Origin: Minwuiaceae bacterium
GTDB taxonomy: Bacteria > Pseudomonadota > Alphaproteobacteria > Minwuiales > Minwuiaceae
Length of the DNA: 64,000 nt
Direction of reading: 5' to 3'
NCBI GenBank assembly: GCA_028278525.1
Contig: JANQEE010000038.1
Coordinates: forward strand, 1-64,000
The notes under the pieces were generated by a model. That model ran no database searches. It saw nothing but the letters and a program-made list of their open reading frames with translations, and was not told the origin of the DNA. This document shows positions 41,264 through 43,831 of this stretch, one piece after another. Made by a program: the position numbers and the translations under genes. Each line of letters starts with the position of its first letter. Positions within the stretch are counted from its first letter, which is position 1.

Positions 41264-43138
41264 TCAGTCGGCCGCTTCGAGAACTTCCTGGGCTTCCAGC
41301 CAGAGTTTTTCGGCAGCCTCTATCGCAGCCGAGAGCTCGCCGCTCTTGCGCGTCAGTTCGACAACGCGGTCGGACGGGCCGTCGTAGACTTCCGGGTCGG
41401 CCAACAACGCCTGGACCTTCTGCTTCTCGGCCTCCAGACGTTTCAAATCGGCCTCCGCCTGCTTGGCCTGTGTCCGCATCGACGACAGGGCGGCCCTGGC
41501 CTGGGCGGCGGCGCGGCGCTGCTCCTTGCGGTTCTGCTTGGGCGCCGTCTTGCCGTTCTCGCGGCCCGCTGCCCGCCGCTGCTCCAGCAGGAACTGGCGG
41601 TAGTCGTCGAGGTCGCCGTCGAATGTCTTCACGGTTCCGTCGGCGACCAGCCATAGCCGCTCGGCGATCAGGCCGACCAGATGCGGGTCGTGGCTGATCA
41701 GCAGGACGGCGCCGGGATAGTCGCTGACCGCGTGCACCAGGGCCTCGCGGGCGTCGATATCCAGATGGTTGGTCGGCTCGTCGAGGATCAGCACCTGGGG
41801 CGCCGCGTGGCTCATCAGGGCGAGCAGCAGCCGCGCCTTCTCGCCGCCGGATAGCGATTCGACGGGAACGTCCGCCTTCTCCTGGGCAAGGCCGAACGGT
41901 CCAAGCCGCGCCCGCACCGCCGAAATCATGGCGTCCGGCATCAGCCGCCGCATATGGTCGAGCGCCGTGTCGCCGAATGTCAGTTCGTCCAATTGATGCT
42001 GGGCGAAATAGCCCGTCTTGAGTTTAGAGGGCGCGACCACGCGGCCCGCCATGGGCTGTAGCCGGCCGGCCAGCAGTTTGGCGAAGGTCGACTTGCCGTT
42101 GCCGTTCGGCCCCAGCAGGGCGATCCGATCGTCCGGATCGATCCTTAAGTTGAGGCCGCTCAGAACCGGATTGTCTTCCTCGTACCCGACGGCGACATCG
42201 TCGAACGTTGCCAAGGGCGGGGCGAGAGAGACCGGCTCGGGAAACCGGAACGACGGCGTCCGCTGATCGACCAGCGAGGCGACGGGCTGCATGCGGGCCA
42301 GCATCTTCAGGCGGCTTTGCGCCTGCCGCGCCTTCGAGGCCTTGTAGCGGAAGCGGTCGACGAAGGCCTGGATGTGCTGGCGCTGCGCCTCCTGCTTTTC
42401 CTGCAGCTTGCGCTGCTGGGCCTGTTTCTCGATCCGGGCAGCCTCGAACTTGTCGTACCCGCCCGAATAGAGAACCAGTTTGCCCTGGTCCAGGTGCAGG
42501 ATGTGGCCGACGGACCGGTTCAACAGGTCGCGGTCGTGGCTGACGATCAGCACCGTATGCGGGTAGGACCGCAAATAGCCCTCCAGCCACATCGTCGCTT
42601 CCAGATCCAGGTGGTTGGTCGGCTCGTCAAGCAGCATCAGATCCGGTTCGCTGAACAGGACCGAGGCAATCGCGACGCGCATACGCCAACCGCCGGAATA
42701 TTCGGAACACGGCCGTTCCTGCGCCGCCTGGTCGAAGCCGAGCCCGGCGAGAATGGCCGCGGCGCGGGACGGGGCGCTGTGGGCGCCGATATCGGCGAGG
42801 CGGGTATGGATCTCCGAAATGCGGTCAGGATCGGTCGCGCTCTCGGACTCTTCAAGCAGAGAGGCCCGCTCGGTATCGGCGGCGAGCACGGTCTCCAACA
42901 GGCTTTTCGATCCGCCGGGCGCTTCCTGGGCGACGATGCCGATCCGCGCGCCGCGCCGGACCTCCAGGTTGCCGATATCCGGGCTTTGCTCGCCGGTGAT
43001 CAAGCGTAGCAGGGAGGTCTTACCGGCGCCGTTCGGTCCGACCAACCCGACCTTGTAGCCGGCCGGAATCGAGACCGTGGCACCGTCCAGCAGCGTGCGG
43101 CCCGCGATCCGGTAGGTCATGTCGTCGATCTGAAGCAT
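41264..43138 (-). CDS. ABC-F family ATPase, YheS-like
   Basis: Soluble protein with two ABC domains and no membrane part; ABC-F proteins act on ribosomes. 624 residues from ATG 43138 (GTG 43156 is an alternative). Walker A motifs GPNGAGKT and GPNGNGKS, signatures YSGGWRMRVAIA and LSGGEKARLLLA, inter-domain linker rich in Gln/Lys/Arg (QQRKLQEKQEAQRQH), C-terminal coiled coil (ALSSMRTQAKQAEADLKRLE). The SGGWRMR signature and linker resemble E. coli YheS more than Uup or EttA. Confidence 0.92.
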   Translation of the reverse strand: MLQIDDMTYRIAGRTLLDGATVSIPAGYKVGLVGPNGAGKTSLLRLITGEQSPDIGNLEVRRGARIGIVAQEAPGGSKSLLETVLAADTERASLLEESESATDPDRISEIHTRLADIGAHSAPSRAAAILAGLGFDQAAQERPCSEYSGGWRMRVAIASVLFSEPDLMLLDEPTNHLDLEATMWLEGYLRSYPHTVLIVSHDRDLLNRSVGHILHLDQGKLVLYSGGYDKFEAARIEKQAQQRKLQEKQEAQRQHIQAFVDRFRYKASKARQAQSRLKMLARMQPVASLVDQRTPSFRFPEPVSLAPPLATFDDVAVGYEEDNPVLSGLNLRIDPDDRIALLGPNGNGKSTFAKLLAGRLQPMAGRVVAPSKLKTGYFAQHQLDELTFGDTALDHMRRLMPDAMISAVRARLGPFGLAQEKADVPVESLSGGEKARLLLALMSHAAPQVLILDEPTNHLDIDAREALVHAVSDYPGAVLLISHDPHLVGLIAERLWLVADGTVKTFDGDLDDYRQFLLEQRRAAGRENGKTAPKQNRKEQRRAAAQARAALSSMRTQAKQAEADLKRLEAEKQKVQALLADPEVYDGPSDRVVELTRKSGELSAAIEAAEKLWLEAQEVLEAAD

Positions 43139-43161
43139 TTGTATGGCTCTTATCACGGCAA

Positions 43162-43191
43162 CCGGATCTTGGCCAAACGGATCTGGGCCAA
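43162..43191. repeat. Tandem imperfect 15-bp direct repeat
   Basis: CCGGATCTTGGCCAA is followed immediately by ACGGATCTGGGCCAA (13 of 15 identical). It lies 24 bp upstream of the ABC-F start codon. Confidence 0.6.
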
Positions 43192-43222
43192 TTGGGCTTT
43201 CGACTGTTGCCGCATTGCAATC

Positions 43223-43281
43223 CAGAGCGATATCCGAACCGATCGAACAAATGTTGTTCGATCGGTTCGGATATCGCTCTG
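43223..43281. repeat. Long perfect inverted repeat (28-bp arms, 3-bp loop)
   Basis: The left arm starts CAGAGCGATATCCGAACC and runs to 43250; the right arm 43254-43281 is its exact reverse complement; the loop is ATG. Between divergent ABC-F and ndk genes. It has the size and AGAGC/GCTCT ends of a palindromic extragenic element rather than a normal terminator; no U-run follows. Confidence 0.85.
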
Positions 43282-43294
43282 ATTCCTACAGAGG

Positions 43295-43359
43295 TAGAGC
43301 ATCTTTATCTGATCAATCGGAATCGCTGGTGCGATTCCGATTGATCAGATGATGCTCTA
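43295..43359. repeat. Second long inverted repeat with 3-base bulge
   Basis: Left arm 43295-43325 (TAGAGCATC, TTT bulge, ATCTGATCAATCGGAATCG) pairs with 43332-43359 around a 6-base loop; apart from the TTT insertion pairing is perfect. It starts 13 bp after the first inverted repeat and has the same AGAGC/GCTCT ends. Ends 49 bp before ndk. Confidence 0.85.
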
Positions 43360-43408
43360 GCCGATATAACCGCGCGCCTTAGCGGATTGACAGAAGGACG
43401 AGCGAAAG

Positions 43409-43831
43409 ATGGGGATCGAACGGACATTCTCGATCATCAAGCCCGACGCGACCCGGCGTAACCTGACCGGCGCGGTCAACGCCAAGATCGAAGCGGCCGG
43501 ACTGAAGATTATCGGGCAGAAGCGGATCCGGATGACCCGCGATCAGGCCGAGACGTTTTATTCGGTCCACCGGGAGCGCCCGTTCTTCGGCTCGCTGGTC
43601 GAGTTCATGACCTCGGGACCGGTCGTCGTCCAGGTCCTCGAAGGCGAGGGCGCGATCACGAAGTACCGCGAAGTGATGGGCGCCACAAACCCGGCGGAAG
43701 CCGCCGACGGCACCATCCGCAAGGAATTCGCGGAGAGCGTGGAAGCCAACTCGGTGCACGGTTCCGACGCACCGGAGACGGCGGACGAGGAAATCGGCTA
43801 CTTCTTCGCCGGGACCGAACTGGTCGGCTAA
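43409..43831 (+). CDS. ndk: Nucleoside diphosphate kinase
   Basis: Equilibrates nucleoside di- and triphosphates through a phosphohistidine. 140 residues, [15 protein letters not shown] at the N-terminus and active-site H117 in [10 protein letters not shown]. Its stop overlaps the convergent purN stop. Confidence 0.97.

Follow-up and report, generated by a model that had tools for sequence, protein, structure and literature searches.

What are the two long inverted repeats that stand side by side between the divergent genes for an ABC-F type ATPase and nucleoside diphosphate kinase (ndk), upstream of both (Table 1)? They are the two strongest inverted repeats of the window (that is, the whole 64-kb stretch of DNA that was analysed), in which no other passes the threshold used, and as single-stranded DNA the segment 43215-43365 folds with -69.2 kcal/mol, against -19.6 ± 2.7 for shuffled sequences (z = -18). 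A first-pass annotation had seen a perfect 28-bp hairpin with an ATG loop, followed 13 bp on by a second hairpin with a TTT bulge, both beginning with AGAGC and ending with GCTCT. That description holds at every point but one: the second stem has 29 pairs (9 + 20), not about 27. The absence of U-runs is also borne out: neither a U-tract terminator match nor a σ70 promoter match is found in 43100-43450, and the readings of the hairpins as an intrinsic terminator (a GC-rich stem with a U-tract) and of the region as a promoter were accordingly rejected. Rfam offers only sub-threshold microRNA-like matches, as it would for any long hairpin. (A local detail: ndk and the convergent minus-strand gene downstream of it share 4 nt, 43828-43831, where their stop codons overlap.)

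Table 1. The two-hairpin unit and its neighbours (positions in the window)
Feature	Position	Strand	Remarks
Whole two-hairpin unit, one repeat copy	43223..43359	.	match to covariance model R1 at C61:43220-43363, 143 bits; belongs to the 9 full copies of the genome
Hairpin A, 28-bp perfect stem	43223..43281	.	43223-43250 / ATG loop / 43254-43281; lacks the usual 3-nt inner-arm bulge
Linker between hairpins A and B, 13 nt	43282..43294	.	
Hairpin B, 29 pairs, TGGT loop	43295..43359	.	copies elsewhere in the genome
Unpaired TTT bulge, inner arm of hairpin B	43304..43306	+	family feature (+3 nt on inner arm)
Left outer end, CCAG	43222..43225	.	family consensus CTAG; T to C compensated by G at 43281
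Right outer end, CTAG	43357..43360	.	
GANTC site, hairpin A end / linker	43281..43285	.	
GANTC site near hairpin B loop, left arm	43320..43324	.	
GANTC site near hairpin B loop, right arm	43333..43337	.	
ndk, nucleoside diphosphate kinase	43409..43831	+	starts 49 nt past the unit; Pfam NDK 4e-54
ABC-F type ATPase gene, divergent	41264..43138	-	starts 84 nt before the unit; two ABC_tran + ABC_tran_Xtn

The two hairpins are not alone in their genome. A BLAST search with each of them separately gave only half of the picture: hairpin B has many relatives, while hairpin A looked single-copy at the E-value used. A pattern search finds A-type hairpins next to B-type hairpins elsewhere in the genome too, and the repeat unit is therefore the pair: hairpins A and B are one unit, not two unrelated elements. 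Eight such pairs align with 87% mean column identity, and a covariance model (R1) built from these 8 copies matches 9 full units of the 5.95-Mb assembly at more than 130 bits, and roughly twelve others that are weaker or decayed. In the alignment 16 base pairs are altered on both sides, a number reached by none of 500 shuffles (slid controls give 2-5). Short deletion forms of the repeat are also present. In L023 (G000:C42:79530-79612) and L022 (G000:C12:46642) the hairpins are shortened by symmetrical deletion of the stem middles, with the base motif kept; separately, in two different genomes the sequence GGATATTGCTCTAG comes just before a full unit (L046, G000:C57:392833; L186:2627); it is an inverted half-end that belongs to a second unit and has the CTAG in common with the first, which gives the impression of insertion of one element at another's end.

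How widely is the unit distributed? R1 finds it in at least 25 of 385 genomes of Alphaproteobacteria, spread over many families, and in at least 8 of 399 in a phylum-wide scan, all of them again Alphaproteobacteria; these are lower bounds, because only 7-8 candidates were scored per genome in the large scans. The distribution is patchy: at the filters used none of 8 genomes of the same family matches, and distant families do. On named genomes a half-hairpin pattern (part of hairpin B) leads to the same repeat, with R1 matching 69 of the 80 loci listed, nearly always with the full model; hosts named among these loci include Pelagibius litoralis, Denitrobaculum, Kiloniellaceae, Tistlia, Bradyrhizobium and Beijerinckia. 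The few pattern matches outside the class include a Limnohabitans MAG and a Parabacteroides record. Relatives of about 105 bp reside on Bartonella plasmids; plasmid searches gave no match to either of two queries, the window copy and a G036 copy. Viral contigs yielded no match to the hairpin-B pattern, and carriage of the repeat by phage was rejected on that ground.

Between genomes the stem sequences are almost wholly unlike one another, and it is the layout that stays constant: the unit is bounded on its two outer sides by CTAGAGC, its hairpins are separated by a short linker, and the inner arm of a hairpin is usually 3 bases longer than the outer one. CTAG is intact at 203 of 252 outer ends, and at both ends of 85 of 134 elements; the C at -1 is found at 89% of outer ends and is not a feature of inner ends. 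Among 272 parsed hairpins the inner arm is longer by a net 3 nt in 194 and by none in 53. (In one copy, L131:203-346, the bulge of the 5' hairpin is reversed: its 3 additional bases are on the outer arm.) Close to its loop one hairpin has the motif GAACC, the other GAATCGC. GANTC occurs 2.0 times per element in 19 other genomes, against 0.54 in shuffles, in a count that left out the pattern-selected loci (which contain GATTC by construction); it is absent from 5 of the 9 copies in the window's own genome, and the window copy contains three, of which two lie next to the loop of hairpin B without being part of it. By these standards the window copy is atypical: it is placed in a divergent promoter region, it has lost one bulge, and its left CTAG is now CCAG.

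The lost bulge touches on how the two arms of a hairpin stay alike. Window hairpin A departs from the consensus in ways that are matched on both of its arms. In the C61, C3 and G036 copies both arms are of the outer type, and in another G036 copy (L090) both are of the inner type. The alignment (A1) has 20 cells changed on both sides and 4 one-sided wobble cells, 3 of these at a loop-closing pair. These changes fit the copying of one arm onto the other in folded DNA; selection on structure may also account for them.

Where the repeat lies in relation to genes was judged with a simple codon-based gene caller written for the analysis. Just 1 of 65 elements is inside a called gene, and two others overlap a gene by 55-69 nt; many overlap only the stop codon of a called gene. 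Convergent neighbours flank 28 of the 57 elements that have two called neighbours, against 30 of 203 other gaps (Fisher p = 3e-7), and where exactly one long frame enters an element it meets TAG in frame in 66 of 96 cases (66 against 19 and 11 for the other frames, p = 2e-12; random positions give about 1:1:1), although both p-values are optimistic, since the copies of one genome are only partly independent of each other. No long frame abuts 99 of 232 element ends. The C29 copy makes the arrangement concrete: convergent SDR and MarC genes, each with its full domain, both terminate at the element's TAG, and a MarC homolog (52% identical) ends within one codon of the C29 gene's stop position. 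The copies thus bear out the first-pass suspicion of a palindromic extragenic repeat or a miniature mobile element pair: they are multiple, mostly intergenic and share their boundaries, the "pair" becoming one two-hairpin unit.

Direct signs of movement are fewer. Two Pelagibius genomes with orthologous flanks have a filled site in one and an empty site in the other. No clean target-site duplication is seen: the divergence at the sole well-aligned empty site is about 80%, CTAG is missing from it, and the gene at the filled site ends about 10 codons before its ortholog. The alignment of Kiloniellaceae L190/L235 is too diverged to read, and neither L185 nor L141 is an empty site, because AGAGC-type ends are found in both genomes close to the start of the same gene. 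All 5 of 5 Bartonella plasmid copies are common to two strains, which indicates no recent movement there.

The CTAG ends are also meeting points with insertion sequences, in Pelagibius, Denitrobaculum, a Kiloniellaceae genome and G036: an IS5-type end adjoins the element CTAG in three genomes, another, repeated IS-like end does so at five P. litoralis loci, and in G036 the neighbour at the CTAG is an IS481-like transposase gene (rve_3). (The IS family names are presumptive, taken from the end sequence and one Pfam match.) At P. litoralis L160, L135, L178, L222 and L228, contigs end in CAGGCTGCTGAAAAAGG... directly at the element CTAG; this sequence is probably an IS that uses the elements as landing sites. 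The similar GGCTGCTGAAAAAGG adjoins the C24 copy in the window's own genome (L043).

Which described repeats does this one resemble? Its nearest relatives are the CIR and Bru-RS repeats rather than the RAYT-driven REPs. As described, the CIR of Caulobacter consists of a pair of stem-loops with a linker between them; its termini are TA, and GANTC is conserved in it. The present repeat shares with it the two long stem-loops and linker, TA at the termini (the left end of the window copy, CCAG, apart), the intergenic placement (with the one exception noted) and the alphaproteobacterial host, and in part the GANTC, which lies near one hairpin's loop in many genomes; it differs in its length (about 137-145 bp, against about 110) and in that GANTC is not conserved among the copies of its own genome. 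It is accordingly filed as a variant of the CIR / Bru-RS kind and not as CIR itself, CIR being compared by description only. Bru-RS1 and Bru-RS2 of Brucella (103-105 bp, thus shorter, and likewise compared by description) are also dispersed, intergenic, palindromic alphaproteobacterial repeats, and also hot spots for IS, at YTAR with TA duplication in Brucella and at abutting CTAG here. RIME1, the Rhizobium-specific intergenic mosaic element, has a layout of two palindromes; by description it shares with the present repeat the intergenic location and a conserved secondary structure.

The repeat, then, is multi-copy, of fixed boundaries and architecture, mostly intergenic, enriched at convergent gene ends, a supplier of TAG stops, and abutted by IS at its CTAG ends. 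From this we infer that it is a mobile element, and the window hairpins are probably a single copy of a non-autonomous, dispersed repeat of the CIR / Bru-RS type, a hairpin pair about 137 bp long that inserts at CTAG and whose arms are kept complementary mostly by copying. Copies would spread by insertion at CTAG, best tolerated at stop codons and above all at one common to convergent genes; mobilisation would be in trans, by a factor recognising the CTAGAGC ends and the bulged hairpins (the analysis found no mobilising gene). In the folded DNA one arm would be copied onto the other by template switching, which would be the main source of the near-perfect stems, and sequences could drift while complementarity persists because of such copying. 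The window copy probably inserted between the divergent genes and was then "perfected" by arm copying.

What might move such a repeat? Paired palindromes in inverted order, with bulged stems, recall REP, REPIN and BIME elements, moved by a single-strand Y1 (RAYT) transposase acting on hairpins, and two inverted bulged hairpins resemble REP dimers in particular (PMC3733652). There is one RAYT-like gene in the genome, and RAYT genes co-occur weakly with the repeat (9 of 25 carriers against 61 of 360 other genomes, p = 0.03). An origin of this kind is nevertheless improbable: Y1_Tnp is undetected at E <= 1e-5 in 16 of the 25 carriers found, including G036 (one contig, about two dozen copies), so that RAYT/Y1 was rejected as a required mobiliser and the repeat has no obligatory RAYT as a RAYT-dependent REPIN does; the RAYT genes of carriers are accompanied by different hairpins of their own; the ends are CTAG, not the GTAG/CGTC tag; and the stems are about 28 bp long against 5-13 bp in REPs. 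(After the genome's single RAYT-like Y1 transposase gene, L041 or G000:C57:1-780, comes a long hairpin of the gene's own, CTAACAAAAAAGGGGA..., at the end of the contig; this hairpin has no relation to the AGAGC repeat.) A DDE transposase of the IS5/IS427, IS481 or IS1182 type, targeting CTAG/YTAR and moving the unit as a MITE, is a better candidate and still a somewhat unlikely one. IS of several types have their junction precisely at the element CTAG, and IS711 of Brucella duplicates TA at YTAR and favours Bru-RS; however, the IS ends seen (GGGTCAGGACTCA, CAGGCTGCTGAAAAAG) are unlike CTAGAGC, so that the IS may merely use the element as a target, and the two ends of the element are parts of two separate hairpins instead of forming one pair of terminal repeats.

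Or is mobility beside the point, the unit being a functional chromosomal signal at gene ends that is held in place by selection (for CcrM methylation, termination, mRNA 3' stabilisation or nucleoid binding)? The enrichment at convergent gene ends, the excess of GANTC in the other genomes and the strict architecture speak in its favour, but the missing GANTC in 5 of the genome's own 9 copies, the patchy distribution that at the filters used passes over 8 genomes of the same family, the lack of a U-tract and the position of the window copy upstream of both of its neighbours make this unlikely. Closer to the locus itself, the unit could possibly affect ndk, given its 49-nt distance; that it exists as a 5' UTR regulatory hairpin for ndk or the ABC-F gene is very hard to credit, the same two-hairpin unit standing beside unrelated genes and mostly at their 3' ends.

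The preferred reading of a mobile CTAG-inserting repeat can be carried further, if only tentatively: CIR, Bru-RS, RIME1 and many undescribed repeats might form one class-wide superfamily, set by grammar (CTAGAGC ends, two unlike hairpins, the inner arm longer by 3 nt, loop-proximal GAACC and GAATCGC) and not by sequence, moved by some enzyme and tolerated at CTAG where convergent genes share a stop. Such a testable grammar may unite several separately named alphaproteobacterial repeats, and it comes with a definite rule for insertion, at CTAG, which is often a stop codon. The repeat would also provide a natural case in which to separate arm-to-arm DNA copying from RNA selection as the source of "compensatory" changes, a distinction that matters wherever RNA structure is inferred from covariation.
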